Shown one piece after another: positions 2 through 5,436 of a stretch of DNA of 64,000 nucleotides. The stretch is from Phycisphaera sp. (GTDB taxonomy: Bacteria > Planctomycetota > Phycisphaerae > Phycisphaerales > Zrk34). The notes under the pieces were generated by a model that made no database searches, was not told the origin of the DNA, and worked only from the letters and a program-made list of their open reading frames with translations. Every line of letters starts with the position of its first letter. Within the stretch, counting starts at the first letter, position 1. The stretch covers positions 1 through 64,000 of the forward strand of contig WGMA01000065.1 in assembly GCA_016125285.1 (NCBI GenBank), read 5' to 3'. Both the position numbers and the translations under genes were made by a program.

Positions 2-271
2 GTGTTGGATTTTCGCTCGGATACATTCTCCCTCGGCATCGTTCTCTATCTGATGGCCACGCGCCAGCACCCGTTTGCCGCAGGCGCAACGAATTCATGG
101 GAAGTGTTGACCAATATTCAGAGAATGACCCCGGCACCGCCCAACCAACACCGAACCGACCTTCCGAATGAATTGAACGCCATCATTCTTCGGCTACTGG
201 GCAAACGCCCATCGCTTCGATATCGAACCCCGCAGATGCTGCTGGATGCCCTCCAGAGCGTTCCGATCTGA
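2..271 (+). CDS. Ser/Thr protein kinase, C-terminal fragment (cut by window edge)
   Basis: Only the last 89 codons lie in the window, so the ATP-binding loop and catalytic loop cannot be inspected. What remains matches the end of the kinase C-lobe: a D-x-F-S-L-G-I-V-L-Y stretch (subdomain IX, the aspartate before the SLG-type turn) at the left edge, a hydrophobic helix with ATRQHPF (the usual 'tG..PF' step), and the closing arginine region GKRPSLRYRT (subdomain XI). The protein stops about 20 residues after that arginine, so there is no C-terminal sensor or transmembrane domain. The stop overlaps the Shine-Dalgarno AAGGAG of the next gene, 11 bases before its ATG, so the two genes are translationally linked. 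GC is lower than in the core genes further right. Confidence 0.85.
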   Translation: MLDFRSDTFSLGIVLYLMATRQHPFAAGATNSWEVLTNIQRMTPAPPNQHRTDLPNELNAIILRLLGKRPSLRYRTPQMLLDALQSVPI

Positions 272-282
272 AGGAGCTTGCG

Positions 283-1488
283 ATGCCTCTATTGGCTCAA
301 TGTGGATATGGCCGTAGCGACAAGATCGAACAGGGGATCGCTGCCGGTAGCATAACCGGTGTCATCTTGAGTCCTCGCGACGAGCGAAGGGATCGCCTGG
401 AGTCCTTCTACGTGGACCTGCGCCGAGGCGCGTCTGATTTCGCGGTAATGTTCGATCCTCAGTTCTATGCTGCAACGTTGTCTAATGTCCGTGATGGCAA
501 CTTGGCAGCCTACCCCTACTACGCAAACAACACTGGTCTGAGCCGGAACCAATTTCGACCGCGACAGATCGAAGCCTATGTCCGCAACTGCCTTGATTAT
601 CAGATGCAGTCACTGCCGGGACTCGATTATCTGATTTCACCGTCCGTCCCTTTCGATGACTTTCGGGATTCGTGGAGCCAGATCGCGCTGAGTATGGCGG
701 AAGCCGCGATTGACGATTGCGCTCAGCGAGACGATGCGCCACCGTTACTCGTCACGATCGTTCTATCTGAAGCAGCATTGCGTGATCCGACGAAGATGAA
801 TGAGTTCTTGGATACGCTCTCGGCACTCGATGTGCCTGGGTTCTATTTCTTGGTGCAGCGGACCAGCAACACGCTTGATCCGGCAATGGACACAACGTCG
901 CTGACAAATCTGCTGTTTCTCGTCTATGTTTTGGCGACCTTGAATGAATTTGAAGTGGTAGTGGGTTACAGCGACTGGATGGGCTTTCTCTTTCAAGCCG
1001 TCGGCGCAACGCTTTCCGCGAGCGGTTGGCACAATAGCTTAAAGCAGTTCTCGCTGGCCCGATACCTTCCGCAGACGGGGGGAAGGCGGCCTCGGAAGCG
1101 TTACTCCTCCTTGCCATTGCTTTCCTGTCCTCTGGTTGTGCCGGAACTCGAGGACATCCACCGACTTGGGCTACTACCAACGGTTCTTACTGGTGGCTCT
1201 CACGACCACATTCTAAGTGGTGGCCCGGCGCGAGGTGAAACCGCGTGGACAGATGCAATCAGTTGCCTTGCTCATTGGGAGTCGCTTTCGCGATTGTATG
1301 CCACGATCGAGTCCCACCGGACGGTCCAAGCGCGACTCAATGCGGTCGACAGAGTGATCCGGTCTGCTCAGACGTCTTTCACTCGGCTCGAATCCTCCGG
1401 CGTCCAGTTTGAACGAACAACCGGCCCCGATCACCTCGATACGTGGGCGGACGCGGTTGCAGGTTTTCGGCATGAAGCGTCGATATAA
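283..1488 (+). CDS. hypothetical protein of the kinase-linked module, possible alpha/beta barrel
   Basis: A 401-aa soluble protein I do not recognise. AAGGAG at 271-276, six bases before the ATG, fixes the start. The sequence alternates short hydrophobic strands with helices: GVILSPRDE near residue 27, FAVMFDP near 56, LDYLISPS near 114, LLVTIVLSE near 155, GFYFLVQR near 186, EFEVVVGYSDW near 224 and a SASGWH turn near 246. This pattern is what a TIM-type barrel looks like and loosely recalls tRNA-guanine-transglycosylase-like folds, but I see no diagnostic catalytic motif, so this is a guess. There is no signal peptide or membrane segment. It sits between a kinase and a nuclease-like protein in one tight run, so it may be a kinase substrate or the enzyme or target-recognition part of the module (inference). 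Confidence 0.7.
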   Translation: MPLLAQCGYGRSDKIEQGIAAGSITGVILSPRDERRDRLESFYVDLRRGASDFAVMFDPQFYAATLSNVRDGNLAAYPYYANNTGLSRNQFRPRQIEAYVRNCLDYQMQSLPGLDYLISPSVPFDDFRDSWSQIALSMAEAAIDDCAQRDDAPPLLVTIVLSEAALRDPTKMNEFLDTLSALDVPGFYFLVQRTSNTLDPAMDTTSLTNLLFLVYVLATLNEFEVVVGYSDWMGFLFQAVGATLSASGWHNSLKQFSLARYLPQTGGRRPRKRYSSLPLLSCPLVVPELEDIHRLGLLPTVLTGGSHDHILSGGPARGETAWTDAISCLAHWESLSRLYATIESHRTVQARLNAVDRVIRSAQTSFTRLESSGVQFERTTGPDHLDTWADAVAGFRHEASI

Positions 1489-1504
1489 TGGAGTGCGAAG
1501 CGCG

Positions 1505-2194
1505 ATGACTCAAAAACGGTCCATGTGCAATTATACGGAAGAACAGATGGCGGATGCCTTTGAGAGCCGCCTCCTGTCGCGTCGCCCATTGACCAGCATC
1601 GGTCGTTTCTCCCAGGTCTTCCGAGAGGTTGATTGTCACAGGGGCCGCCCCGACTTCGTGGGTATCAGTTCTCGGAGAGCTGCGGACAAGCTCGGACACC
1701 ACGGGCGCCACAGTATTGCGACTGCCCGATTGCTGTCCTTGTTGCGAAAGCGATCCCCTCGTAGTCTTGAATCGCTGGTCAAATGTCTGGACATGACTCG
1801 TAGTGTCGTCCAGCGCGCACTACGCCAACTCATATCATCCGGCATGGTCGAGGAGCTTGCGAACGGACAGTTCATCCTCTCCGGTGGGTCGGCCGTCTTC
1901 GAGATCGAAAGTACGGCATTCGAGCTGAAGCTGAAAAGTCCTCGTCGTGCTGTGTTTCAAGCGCAGCAGTACACCTTGTTTGCTCAGAATGTGTGGATTG
2001 TGGTTCCACCGAAGCAGGCGGCGAGCTTTGAAGTTTATAGGCCCGTTCTGAGGAGATGGGGAATCGGCCTTGCAACTTTCAACCCATTGAACCACATCTT
2101 CACGCCGGTCATAACTGCGCGGCGACGCTCCCCTGGCTCCCGTGAGCACCAAGCGTATGCGATGCTTCGGCTAGTGGGCACGGCCGTAGCGTGA
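1505..2194 (+). CDS. PD-(D/E)XK nuclease-like protein with an inserted winged helix
   Basis: I chose the ATG at 1505 because GGAG lies ten bases upstream and because a longer frame from 1409 would overlap the preceding gene by 80 bases. The 229-aa product has the pieces of a PD-(D/E)XK nuclease in order: FREVDCHRGRPD (P49, D50), then FELKLK (E140-L-K142), then QAQQY (Q152 to Y156), which fits the QxxxY motif of RecB-type nucleases. Between the PD and ELK motifs, residues about 74-126 form a winged helix (ARLLSLLRKRSPRS..., then VVQRALRQLISSGMVEE). The DNA-binding domain is therefore apparently inserted inside the nuclease fold. A WIVVPP strand follows. Metal-dependent DNA cleavage directed by the helix is plausible but unproven; a transcription regulator with a decayed nuclease fold is the alternative. 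Confidence 0.65.
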   Translation: MTQKRSMCNYTEEQMADAFESRLLSRRPLTSIGRFSQVFREVDCHRGRPDFVGISSRRAADKLGHHGRHSIATARLLSLLRKRSPRSLESLVKCLDMTRSVVQRALRQLISSGMVEELANGQFILSGGSAVFEIESTAFELKLKSPRRAVFQAQQYTLFAQNVWIVVPPKQAASFEVYRPVLRRWGIGLATFNPLNHIFTPVITARRRSPGSREHQAYAMLRLVGTAVA

Positions 2195-2616
2195 AGTCTT
2201 GCCCGCCTTTCGTCGTGCCGCGACGGCACGACTGAGCGCGGAGGCAGAAACCATAGAGAAACGGATCAGACGCGCCGATGCGGCTGGTGTTTGTAGATCG
2301 CGGTCGACCCGCAACGACGGCGCAGGCTGCATTGTGGAAATTGACAGGTCTTGGCCGATTGAATATCATAATCACAAGATATTGGGGCACCATGCCATAA
2401 TGACACAACAGGCGGTAGTCAAAACACGATTTGGCAGATAGCAGCCTGTCCATTAGTGGTCCGATTCTGACATAACTCACTCAAGAATCATTGCTTACGG
2501 CCCATCAGGGGCGGGCTGTACTTTGGCGCGCTGATTGTGGGGCGCCCCAAGTGGTTTTTGTGCCTGATCAGCAGACCCAGATACCACGAGACGTGAATGT
2601 CTGATTGGCCAATCGA
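2195..2616. other. intergenic stretch between the kinase module and CBASS
   Basis: No convincing gene is present here. An open frame at 2199-2441 has no ribosome binding site and no recognisable composition. The stretch holds the CBASS promoter (2341-2369) and a perfect 12-bp palindrome, TGGGGCGCCCCA, at 2538-2549, between the promoter and the patatin start. The expected leader is about 240 bases, long enough for an operator or a small structured RNA, but I see no known riboswitch fold. Confidence 0.5.
2341..2369 (+). promoter_or_regulatory. sigma70-type promoter of the CBASS operon
   Basis: TTGACA at 2341-2346, a 17-base spacer, then TATCAT at 2364-2369. The -35 is perfect, the spacer optimal, and the -10 one base off consensus. 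It is the only strong promoter between the kinase module and the patatin gene, so CBASS is probably its own transcription unit. Confidence 0.65.
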
Positions 2617-3618
2617 ATGATACCCGCAACCATCAATCCGATTCCCTCATCCGATCGATTTCAGATTCTGGCACTCGATGGGGGTGGCATCAAGGGGCTT
2701 TACTCTGCCGCGGTCCTGGCGAAGTTGGAGGAGAAACTCCAAGTCCGCATCGTCGATCACTTTGATTTGATTACCGGAACTTCTACCGGTGGCTTGATTG
2801 CCGTCGGGCTCGGGTTGGGCATGCGCCCGCGAGAGATCGTCCAGTTCTACATCAGAGAGGGCCCGCGGATTTTCTCGAACACGCTTGGCTGGAGATGGTG
2901 TCTTCACTGGTTTCGACGAAAGTACCCTCAGCACAGGCTGAAATCGGCACTCACCGACAGCGGTGGATTCGGCGACAGACTGTTGGGGGATAGTTCAAAA
3001 CGACTCGTCATCCCGGCGTACAACATTAACCAGGATAAAGTGCGAATCTTCAAGACTCCTCACCATGAGCGCCTCACGACGGATTGGAGCATTCCGGCGT
3101 GGAAAGTCGCCCTGGCCACGAGCGCCGCACCCACGTATTTCGAATCGTGCTGCGATGTCGAGAGCGCCAGGCTGATAGACGGCGGAGTCTGGGCGAACAA
3201 TCCAACCGTCGTTGGCATCGCCGAAGCGGTAAGCATGCTGGGGCGCAAGCTCAACCAGATTCATGTGTTGAATATCGGCACGACAGATTCTCGAAAGCGC
3301 CGCACCCGGTCGCTCAGAAATGGCGGGATTCTTCAGTGGTTACGCGGGAGAGACGTGATCGAGGTGCTCATGCGAGGACAGAGCGTGGGGACCCATGGCC
3401 TAGCGCAACACTTGGTTGGGCCCAATCAAATATTGCGAATCGACCCCATTGTGCCCGACGGGATTTACCATCTCGACCGAGTCAATGCGGATGATCTCGT
3501 AGGCGAAGCAGAAGATTCAGCGCTTCATCATGGACCTGAGGTGAAGCGGATGTTCGTGAGCCACCAGGCACCCTCCTACACGCCACTTCATTTCAGACAG
3601 GAAGCGAGACACCCATGA
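2617..3618 (+). CDS. patatin-like phospholipase, CBASS effector (CapV type)
   Basis: A 333-aa patatin. Motifs from the ATG at 2617: the oxyanion loop DGGGIKG (21-27), the nucleophile elbow GTSTG with Ser56, and the catalytic Asp188 in IDGG. These form the Ser-Asp dyad of cPLA2/patatin lipases. Proteins of this family encoded with a CD-NTase are activated by the cyclic dinucleotide and degrade the inner membrane, causing abortive infection (established for CapV). The frame opens with TTG at 2605, but neither start has a good Shine-Dalgarno; ATG is preferred. The stop overlaps the next start as ATGA (3615-3618), so the gene is co-translated with the CD-NTase. Low GC matches the rest of the island. 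There is no signal peptide, as expected for a cytoplasmic effector. Confidence 0.9.
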   Translation: MIPATINPIPSSDRFQILALDGGGIKGLYSAAVLAKLEEKLQVRIVDHFDLITGTSTGGLIAVGLGLGMRPREIVQFYIREGPRIFSNTLGWRWCLHWFRRKYPQHRLKSALTDSGGFGDRLLGDSSKRLVIPAYNINQDKVRIFKTPHHERLTTDWSIPAWKVALATSAAPTYFESCCDVESARLIDGGVWANNPTVVGIAEAVSMLGRKLNQIHVLNIGTTDSRKRRTRSLRNGGILQWLRGRDVIEVLMRGQSVGTHGLAQHLVGPNQILRIDPIVPDGIYHLDRVNADDLVGEAEDSALHHGPEVKRMFVSHQAPSYTPLHFRQEARHP

Positions 3619-4781
3619 CCACCGCATCTACACTGGCGAACCATCGGCTTGAGGCTCTTGTTGAACTGCTTGACATTCCTCCTAGCTATTATGACCTTGC
3701 TGCAAAGCGGTATCGCTCCCTTGCAGATTGGCTTCATCGGCCCCACTCGTCCGTTCGACAGTTCGATCCTGATGTGTATCCTCAGGGTTCGTTTCGCTTG
3801 GGTACGGTGATTCGGCCCCTACTGACGTCGGAGGAATACGATCTCGACCTCGTGTCCGAACTGAAGCTGCTGACTAAAGAGCAGATGACCCAGCGCGATC
3901 TGAAACACCTCGTCGGTGAGGAGGTGCGAGACTATGTCGCTGCCAATGGCATCAACGAGCCGGTCGAGGAGAAGAAGAGGTGCTGGCGCATCGACTATGC
4001 CGACACCGTCCAGTTTCACATGGACATCCTGCCCGCCATTCCCCAAGATGACCAGTTTCGGACAGTCTTGGCGGCGCGGGCAGTGTCTGGCGATCAGGCA
4101 GAGTTGTCCATCGCAATCACCGATACGACTCATCCGAACTATCAGGTCGTGACCACCGATTGGCCGCCCAGCAATCCGAAGGGATTCGCCCTTTGGTTTG
4201 AAGGCGTGATGCGTTCGGTTGCAGCACCACAATTGAACATGCTCGTCAGAAACCGGGTGTATGCGTCCGTACAAGACATCCCCACATACGAGTGGAAGAC
4301 TCCGCTTCAACGGGTGATTCAACTCTTGAAGCGACACCGCGACGTGATGTTCAGGGACGAACCCGACCTGAAGCCCATCTCAATGATTATCACCACCTTG
4401 TCTGCCAGAGGGTACAGCAACGAGAGCAATCTCCTCGATGCGCTCGCCGCCATTGTGGCGAAAATGCCCGATCACATTCGCCCCAATGCGCCGCGGGTGC
4501 CCAATCCTGTCAACCCCGCCGAGGACTTTGCAGACAAGTGGCGATCGGATTCTCGACTGGAGAAATGCTTCCGTGAATGGCACGCGCAGGTCAAGGTCGA
4601 TCTCGCCGCGCTGACTGGCAATTTGGCTGCGGAGAAACTCATAAAGCTCTATGATCGCAGTTTCGGGCTGAAGCTGGGCATGGACAAGGCTAAGCAATTG
4701 GCAACACTCGGTGCGGTATCTGCGGCACCATCCGTCATCGTGAAATCCTCACCGCCACGCCCATGGAGGCGCAATGCCTGA
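3615..4781 (+). CDS. CD-NTase: cGAS/DncV-like nucleotidyltransferase of CBASS
   Basis: A 388-aa enzyme expected to make a cyclic oligonucleotide alarm signal when phage is sensed. The nucleotidyltransferase signature is complete: QGSFRLGT (57-64), the metal-binding pair Asp76 and Asp78 in EYDLDL, and the third aspartate Asp137 in HMDILP. A helical C-terminal half follows (about 200-388), as in DncV/cGAS-like proteins. I cannot assign the clade or the nucleotide product from sequence alone. The last residues are PWRRNA, ending in alanine. In type II CBASS the CD-NTase C-terminus is joined to targets by an E2-like enzyme, and small C-terminal residues fit that. It overlaps the patatin gene by 4 bases and the E2-like gene by 8. 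Confidence 0.92.
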   Translation: MTTASTLANHRLEALVELLDIPPSYYDLAAKRYRSLADWLHRPHSSVRQFDPDVYPQGSFRLGTVIRPLLTSEEYDLDLVSELKLLTKEQMTQRDLKHLVGEEVRDYVAANGINEPVEEKKRCWRIDYADTVQFHMDILPAIPQDDQFRTVLAARAVSGDQAELSIAITDTTHPNYQVVTTDWPPSNPKGFALWFEGVMRSVAAPQLNMLVRNRVYASVQDIPTYEWKTPLQRVIQLLKRHRDVMFRDEPDLKPISMIITTLSARGYSNESNLLDALAAIVAKMPDHIRPNAPRVPNPVNPAEDFADKWRSDSRLEKCFREWHAQVKVDLAALTGNLAAEKLIKLYDRSFGLKLGMDKAKQLATLGAVSAAPSVIVKSSPPRPWRRNA

Positions 4782-5436
4782 TCGCTCCAGTGACAGATAC
4801 GACTTGTGGGCGGTCAACGAGCTGCTGCGAAAATACGAAGGGCTACGAATCAGACCGCATGGCGGCACGAGCCTGCGGATTGAAGGAGAACTGGACTTCC
4901 GCATGGCGCCTCCGCAGCGAGAGGATATCGCCGACACCTACAGAATCGCGATTGATGTTCCGCTGCGGTTCCCCGCCGAGATTCCCACAGTGCGATCCCT
5001 TGATGATCGCGTGCCGAAGGACTTTCACACAAACCCGGATGGAACGTTCTGTCTCGGCTCGCCGCTACAGCTACATCTCATATTGCATGAGTGCTCGCGC
5101 CTGACGTCGTTTGTTGACCGATGTGTCGTTCCGTTTCTTTATGGTCGAACATATTTCAAACGGCATGCGGAAATGCCGTTTGAGGAATTGAGACATGGAC
5201 GAAAGGGAATTCTTGACGACTACGCGCGCACGCTTCGAGTGCGATCATCCGAGGCCGCGATTCAGATGGTCGCGTTGATGGCCATTAAGAAGAATCTCGC
5301 CAACAAGAAACCGTGCCCGTGTGGAAGCGGGCAACGCGTGGGAAAGTGCCACAATCGGCTACTGAACCCTCTCCGAAAGCGGCTCGGCAGGTCGTGGTTC
5401 CGTCGAGAGTACGCGAATCTGATCAAGATGGCATGA
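4774..5436 (+). CDS. E2-like conjugating enzyme with C-terminal SEC-C zinc motif (type II-short CBASS)
   Basis: A 220-aa protein. Residues about 10-130 fit a bacterial ubiquitin-conjugating (E2) fold: hydrophobic strands, then PLRFPAEIP (63-71, the E2 'P..yP..pP' step), and HTNPDGTFCLGSP with Cys93 as the likely catalytic cysteine and His85/Asn87 nearby. Residues 180-193 are CPCGSGQRVGKCH, a SEC-C zinc-binding motif (Cys181, Cys183, Cys192, His193). A CBASS with an E2 but no E1 (Cap2 is E1-E2) and no JAB protease (Cap3) is the type II-short layout. The expected role is to modify or activate the CD-NTase through its C-terminus. The SEC-C tail could dock a partner (inference). The gene overlaps the CD-NTase by 8 bases and ends the operon. 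Confidence 0.85.
   Translation: MPDRSSDRYDLWAVNELLRKYEGLRIRPHGGTSLRIEGELDFRMAPPQREDIADTYRIAIDVPLRFPAEIPTVRSLDDRVPKDFHTNPDGTFCLGSPLQLHLILHECSRLTSFVDRCVVPFLYGRTYFKRHAEMPFEELRHGRKGILDDYARTLRVRSSEAAIQMVALMAIKKNLANKKPCPCGSGQRVGKCHNRLLNPLRKRLGRSWFRREYANLIKMA

Follow-up and report, generated by a model that had tools for sequence, protein, structure and literature searches.

A Ser/Thr kinase, a 401-residue protein here called P2 and a PD-(D/E)xK nuclease-like protein are encoded together in a three-gene module that recurs in bacteria, archaea and prophages. Recurrence of the trio as a unit beside other anti-virus genes makes an immune module, so far undescribed, the very probable reading.

Recurrence of the trio beside defence genes

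The window, the whole 64,000-nucleotide stretch of DNA that was analysed, comprises bases 1-64000 of contig C51. Its first three genes all lie on the plus strand, separated by gaps of 11 and 16 bases (Table 1), and the three closely spaced genes that the first-pass annotation had placed upstream of CBASS are confirmed, the first of them as a kinase fragment. The low-GC island that it reported is also real: GC content is 54-59% in the first 6 kb and mostly 62-73% over the rest of the window. A translational link between the kinase and P2 had been claimed as well. The Shine-Dalgarno-like AGGAG is indeed found right after the kinase TGA, and its spacing suggests coupling of the two genes. The CBASS genes that adjoin the trio (2605-5436) encode a patatin effector, a DncV-like CD-NTase and an E2-like protein that is stand-alone and has a weak SEC-C motif. 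The trio as part of the CBASS operon was rejected, given the gap of about 400 bp to the patatin gene here and the other trio loci without CBASS.

Table 1. Features of the trio and of the adjoining CBASS genes, in window coordinates
Feature	Position	Strand	Evidence
Ser/Thr protein kinase, C-terminal 89 residues only	2-271	+	Pfam Pkinase, E 8.9e-7
AGGAG, Shine-Dalgarno-like, abutting the kinase TGA and preceding ATG 283	272-276	+	Sequence reading
P2, 401 aa, TGT/DpdA-fold (beta/alpha)8 barrel, probable pseudo-transglycosylase	283-1488	+	Predicted model m469063eef511, Foldseek, VIA
P2 motif D58-P-Q-F-Y62	454-468	+	D58, Q60 and Y62 identical in 15/15 P2
P2 Ala246 codon, aligned to the TGT nucleophile Asp280	1018-1020	+	Alignment; family without Asp there
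PD-(D/E)xK nuclease-like protein, 229 aa, inserted wHTH	1505-2194	+	Model mcfb2779f6f1a, conserved residues, PaqCI match
Nuclease, catalytic Asp50 codon	1652-1654	+	Alignment of relatives
wHTH insert, residues ~68-130, between Asp strand and ExK strand	1706-1894	+	Model, HTH matches
Nuclease E140-L-K142, ExK motif	1922-1930	+	Alignment of relatives
CBASS patatin	2605-3618		
CBASS CD-NTase, DncV-like	3615-4781		
CBASS E2	4774-5436		

How firmly are the three genes linked? Profile searches with each protein placed a kinase and a PD-(D/E)xK nuclease next to P2 at 21 of the 22 P2 loci, a count in which two loci (L031 and L032) are near-identical. Three gene orders occur: nuclease-kinase-P2, kinase-P2-nuclease, and kinase-P2 facing the nuclease. 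Across the loci the genes overlap or are separated by a few bases, and the linkage persists despite the rearranged order. P2 is present in 13 of 392 evenly sampled genomes of the phylum, each time with a nuclease match within about 1 kb (13/13). Relatives were also found in an Auribacterota MAG, on the haloarchaeal Natribaculum plasmid CP095393 and on the Polaromonas plasmid pPNAP03, and others lie on viral contigs. Two of the 72,556 records in a plasmid collection contain P2; it is absent from the 50,697 records of a phage collection. The 6-Mb genome of the window has about 45 kinase matches, so that a single kinase neighbour could be luck; its repetition across phyla and domains at about 20-30% identity could not.

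Several loci are irregular. At L023 (5574-8300), P2 and the nuclease occur without a kinase, and the frame upstream resembles an aminotransferase of the glutamate-1-semialdehyde type; its junction with P2 is possibly an assembly join. P2 at L025 (6649-7928) is in two overlapping frames, with an in-frame TGA from the genome search, and is apparently either decaying or affected by a sequencing error. A kinase-P2 fusion at L074 (2051-3496) was rejected: the kinase is only a C-lobe beside a helicase-like frame, perhaps through rearrangement or misassembly. The P2-like protein in frame with this C-lobe carries a CxCxxC motif. On pPNAP03 (L004:6697-7206), a short nuclease ORF overlaps the kinase gene and is missing from the PLSDB gene table.

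The neighbours of the trio argue strongly for a function in defence. At L018 (1256-12490), PADLOC places it within a type-3 BREX system, on one strand, in the order PglXI, nuclease, kinase, P2, BrxHI/II, PglZ and BrxA. Judged by the similarity of its neighbours, L084 (1-10976) apparently has the same insertion, with P2 split into two ORFs. The trio as a core BREX component was rejected, since it lies within BREX at L018 and apparently L084, and at most loci outside any BREX context. Other loci have HsdS, a PDC-S02 candidate and an OLD-like ATPase as neighbours (L022), HsdM on one side (L025), a C5 methylase following the trio (L002) or near it (L005), or a type IIG RM enzyme nearby (L003). At L007 the trio sits between the terminase large subunit and portal genes, the position of prophage cargo. 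Inspection of L020, L021 and L024 revealed no recognisable defence neighbour. The trio thus recurs in unrelated genomes near defence genes when the 401-residue protein is used as the anchor of a neighbourhood search, and this co-occurrence, together with absence from curated libraries, gives good support to the undescribed defence module that the first-pass annotation had suggested.

Might the trio instead be cargo with no part in defence, a regulatory or selfish element of the toxin-antitoxin-like addiction type that rides defence islands and prophages? Its rarity and patchiness, at the genome and plasmid frequencies given above, would suit such an element, as would its place as a prophage moron. 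Insertion between BREX's own genes and repeated pairing with RM systems speak against this, and no antitoxin-like gene recurs constantly with the trio. We regard it as very unlikely.

Predicted fold and putative active site of P2

P2 had been called unrecognised, and so it proved: neither alone nor with 14 relatives did it match a family in Pfam, NCBIfam, PHROGs or PADLOC, the sole exception being an isolated Pfam match (E 0.005). The AlphaFold2 prediction, made from eight sequences, is a beta/alpha barrel of eight strands. Confidence in the model is moderate (pLDDT 69.7, higher in the core) and poor for residues 248-326, which cover much of the region past strand 8. The best Foldseek match in the PDB is DpdA, the DNA preQ0 insertase (7ui4, E 2.7e-4); tRNA-guanine transglycosylases (TGTs) come next, and certain TIM barrels of no known relation score almost as well by E-value. 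Realignment by VIA against a TGT gave Z 17.7 and rmsd 4.0 over 288 aligned residues, spanning residues 1-369. All of the top 50 VIA rows for the P2 model are TGTs, a list that is partly redundant because the PDB holds many TGT entries. A phage queuine tRNA-ribosyltransferase ranks second among the matches in a library of viral structures (BFVD). At moderate model confidence, then, P2 is a (beta/alpha)8 barrel with TGT topology.

P2 and TGT share about 10% identity. A sequence-only search of the PDB with P2 gave no match, and hhalign comparison of P2 with TGT and DpdA gave no support (probability 0.1-0.4%). The relationship to TGT therefore rests on the fold, on motif spacing and on the zinc motif of a sister group described below.

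The nucleophile of Zymomonas TGT is Asp280; Asp102 assists, and Tyr106 stacks on the base (PMC6165067). The P2 motif D58xxxY62 has the spacing of Asp102xxxTyr106, and both residues are found in 15 of 15 P2 sequences; D58 is also invariant (16/16) in a two-group alignment of P2 with the sister proteins. The position aligned to Asp280 is A, S, C or G across the 15 P2 sequences; in the two-group alignment, which has 16 members, it is A, S, T, G, M or L. Asp occurs there in neither set. Since the Asp102 equivalent is kept and the nucleophilic Asp is absent by alignment, P2 is probably a pseudo-transglycosylase, a degenerate member of the TGT superfamily, to which the DNA base-exchange enzyme DpdA also belongs. 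It would most likely bind a base without exchanging it. The nucleophile position is read from the alignment, with no superposed pocket, because residues 248-326 are poorly modelled. A natural non-catalytic paralogue of TGT exists in QTRT2 (PMC6165067). The possibility that P2 is the housekeeping TGT was rejected: the same genome encodes an ordinary TGT on contig C56. A housekeeping identity for the 401-residue protein, which the first-pass annotation had considered fatal to its idea, is therefore not what was found.

An active P2 would imply a different system. It could mark host DNA by base exchange, as in Dpd, with the nuclease cutting unmarked DNA and the kinase regulating the process. P2 matches DpdA in fold, has a nuclease partner and keeps the Asp102-equivalent D58 in every sequence, and Dpd itself is an RM-like system (PMC6884629). 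Nevertheless the nucleophile-aligned position is occupied by A, S, T, C, G, M or L and never by Asp, no Dpd model matches P2, and queC, queD, queE, folE and the other Dpd genes were unrecognised among the listed neighbours. We consider base exchange by P2 unlikely and prefer the pseudo-transglycosylase.

Nuclease, kinase and a kinase-less sister group

Pfam and similar libraries match the nuclease protein only to generic winged-helix families, in its middle; an arsR/MarR-like wHTH lies at residues ~75-120. When the window protein is aligned with 15 relatives, E12, D50, E140 and K142 are invariant (16/16), a pattern that is the sequence signature of a PD-(D/E)xK nuclease with an inserted wHTH. 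The first-pass reading of a nuclease-like protein of this kind thus holds, with the D...ExK site (D50, E140, K142) intact by alignment. In the predicted model the strands follow the expected PD-(D/E)xK order (Asp strand, wHTH, ExK strand). The type IIS enzyme PaqCI matches residues 9-211 with Z 11, and most other structural matches cover the wHTH alone. The nucleases of L004 and L020 lack the insert, so the wHTH is an accessory DNA-binding part. Two nuclease homologues with a wHTH (L077:5379-6107 and L078:5063-5758) occur with no detectable P2 or kinase, the second among phage-like genes.

The window begins at a contig end, and the assembly edge truncates the kinase: the N-lobe and catalytic loop are missing and only the last 89 residues are present. 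No obvious partner for the missing half was recognised on the other contigs, among the numerous kinase matches of this genome. The fragment is matched by the family kinase profile (G000:C51:5-262, E 4.7e-27) and by the PADLOC PD-T4-6 kinase model (E 3e-16), a model of Ser/Thr kinases in general. In 14 of 14 full-length relatives, VAIK-K, alphaC-E, HRD, DxG and APE are intact, and with them the catalytic K, HRD and DFG of a Ser/Thr kinase, a region that the window copy lacks. With its residues kept in 14/14 relatives and those of the nuclease in 16/16, both enzymes are likely to be active. The relatives are ~280-315 aa long, with little outside the kinase domain. They lend indirect support to the first-pass claim of a kinase without sensor domains, which the window copy, cut by the contig end, cannot itself settle.

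Which of the three proteins senses infection? The answer may come from a sister group that the nuclease profile uncovered (L075, L076, L079-L081 and L087, with L074). Its proteins are homologous to P2 (hhalign probability 99.4%, E 4.6e-22). All seven carry CxCxxC near the place of the TGT zinc motif, which none of the 15 kinase-linked P2 proteins has. Against TGT, the unforced hhalign alignment of these proteins scores poorly (E 0.014, probability 3%), yet it is collinear and puts the group's invariant Asp on the TGT motif DSGG[FY]. The sister P2-nuclease pair lacks a kinase, and P2 is for that reason the better candidate for the sensor. The first-pass annotation had cast the kinase as sensor, a role not indicated by relatives that are nearly bare kinase domains or by this kinase-less lineage. 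Its other assignment, the nuclease as effector, is plausible, as all active-site residues are conserved.

In place of the kinase, the sister loci have a small protein of ~190-215 aa with a TRLxK[LM]-type motif (L076, L079, L080, L081, L086, L087), of the form ITRLQKLLFLL, which is probably a wHTH. A predicted membrane protein is also encoded at L079, L080 and L086. The nuclease of the kinase-less module is a short PD-(D/E)xK protein without a wHTH. The P2-like protein of L086 is truncated at a contig end. At L081 (3832-9302) the module lies amid Abi-like, SIR2-like and HsdS-like genes, named by eye. The profile of the P2-like proteins matches 9 of the 392 genomes of the phylum, including one mixed case (G137).

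The sister group bears on two further explanations. In the first, infection would be aborted by the kinase, its phosphorylation of host targets being the toxic output, while P2 and the nuclease would do the sensing or the licensing. Phosphorylation of host targets has been proposed for PD-T4-6-like and HipA kinases; here the catalytic residues of the kinase are fully conserved and the fragment scores well on PD-T4-6 models. Those models, however, describe Ser/Thr kinases in general, and full conservation extends to the site of the nuclease. A P2-nuclease lineage without a kinase also means that the output common to all loci must be something other than the kinase. We hold kinase-led abortive infection to be unlikely as well. 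The second explanation is directed at RNA: P2 would keep from its TGT ancestry the ability to bind tRNA and bring the nuclease to RNA, or would monitor a queuosine-type state of tRNA. The TGT fold agrees with this, and the sister group retains the zinc site that helps TGT to bind tRNA (PMC6165067). The cysteines are lost in the P2 proteins of the kinase group (0/15), and the wHTH of most nucleases suggests DNA as the target. An RNA-directed effector seems to us quite improbable.

Proposed mechanism and relation to known systems

We propose a mobile three-gene immune module in which P2 acts as sensor, the kinase as the switch of the complex and the nuclease as the enzyme that cuts DNA, and we give this scheme an even chance of being right. 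P2 would recognise a cue of infection, for instance a phage DNA base that is modified or exposed, an altered RNA or a free base. The Ser/Thr kinase would then activate the complex by phosphorylating P2, the nuclease or both, or itself, whereupon the wHTH-PD-(D/E)xK protein would cleave DNA. The constant pair is P2 and the nuclease, and the switch would be the kinase or, in the sister group, the wHTH and membrane proteins. The gene linkage, the intact active sites of the nuclease and (in relatives) of the kinase, the fold match of P2 and the defence neighbourhoods are observed. The order and direction of signalling are put forward as a proposal; the defence function, the loss of base-exchange chemistry and the nature of the cue are what we infer.

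A bolder claim would make P2 the first immune sensor of the pseudo-transglycosylase kind, one that reads nucleobases, for example those of the 7-deazaguanine type with which phages counter restriction, signalling to a DNase by phosphorylation and, in the sister lineage, through the small wHTH-like and membrane proteins. We offer it tentatively, as doubtful. Phages shield their DNA with 7-deazaguanine bases inserted by DpdA (PMC6884629). A protein of the DpdA fold that read such bases would, hypothetically, be a fitting counter to this protection. If confirmed, the module would be a new one across bacteria and archaea that joins phospho-signalling, a nuclease and a base-swapping fold. It would show the TGT fold turned sensor and provide a candidate for the way in which cells detect phage DNA with modified bases. 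P2 would also be a new protein family, one that PADLOC-DB 2.0.0 misses entirely.

We found no description of the kinase-P2-nuclease trio or of the P2 family in the open full-text literature or in four protein libraries. The trio was also compared with two NCBIfam families, sce7725 and sce7726, which are named as a numbered pair and are of unknown function. The nuclease of the kinase-less variant matches sce7726 with an E-value of 2.8e-8, a score short of the curated threshold, and the window nuclease matches it at E 0.006 only. Neither P2 nor a P2-like protein matched the sce7725 model in NCBIfam scans, and a search of the phylum for that family found nothing, a result of little weight since the control genomes were equally empty. 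The pair could be a distant relation of the module.

TGT proteins are known in defence from the Dpd and BRC systems. Like Dpd, the trio combines a TGT-superfamily barrel, with 7ui4 as its top PDB match, and a partner nuclease. Unlike DpdA, P2 has no aligned nucleophilic Asp; the trio adds a Ser/Thr kinase, no preQ0 or other Dpd genes are recognised near it, and the PADLOC models for Dpd miss P2. TGT itself resembles P2 in fold and in the likeness of D58xxxY62 to Asp102xxxTyr106, and shares the CxCxxC zinc motif with the sister group; QTRT2 shows that a TGT can become non-catalytic. The differences are the low identity, the missing zinc cysteines of kinase-linked P2 and the separate, normal TGT of the genome.

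Single kinases in defence are exemplified by PD-T4-6 and Stk2. These and KKP (PMC11341870), a kinase-kinase-phosphatase system, share with the trio a Ser/Thr kinase in a defence or prophage context; none of them is known to have P2 or the trio nuclease. A nuclease of the PD-(D/E)xK clan is combined with an S/T/Y kinase and a wHTH in PglW of type 2 BREX and in a subset of DndF (PMC12839542). In both, the domains belong to a single large protein that also has ATPase and sensor parts, unlike the three small genes of the trio with their TGT-fold protein. The pairing of nuclease and kinase, TGT proteins and lone kinases are thus all familiar in defence. What appears to be new is their combination and the P2 family, which is possibly a categorically new sensor.
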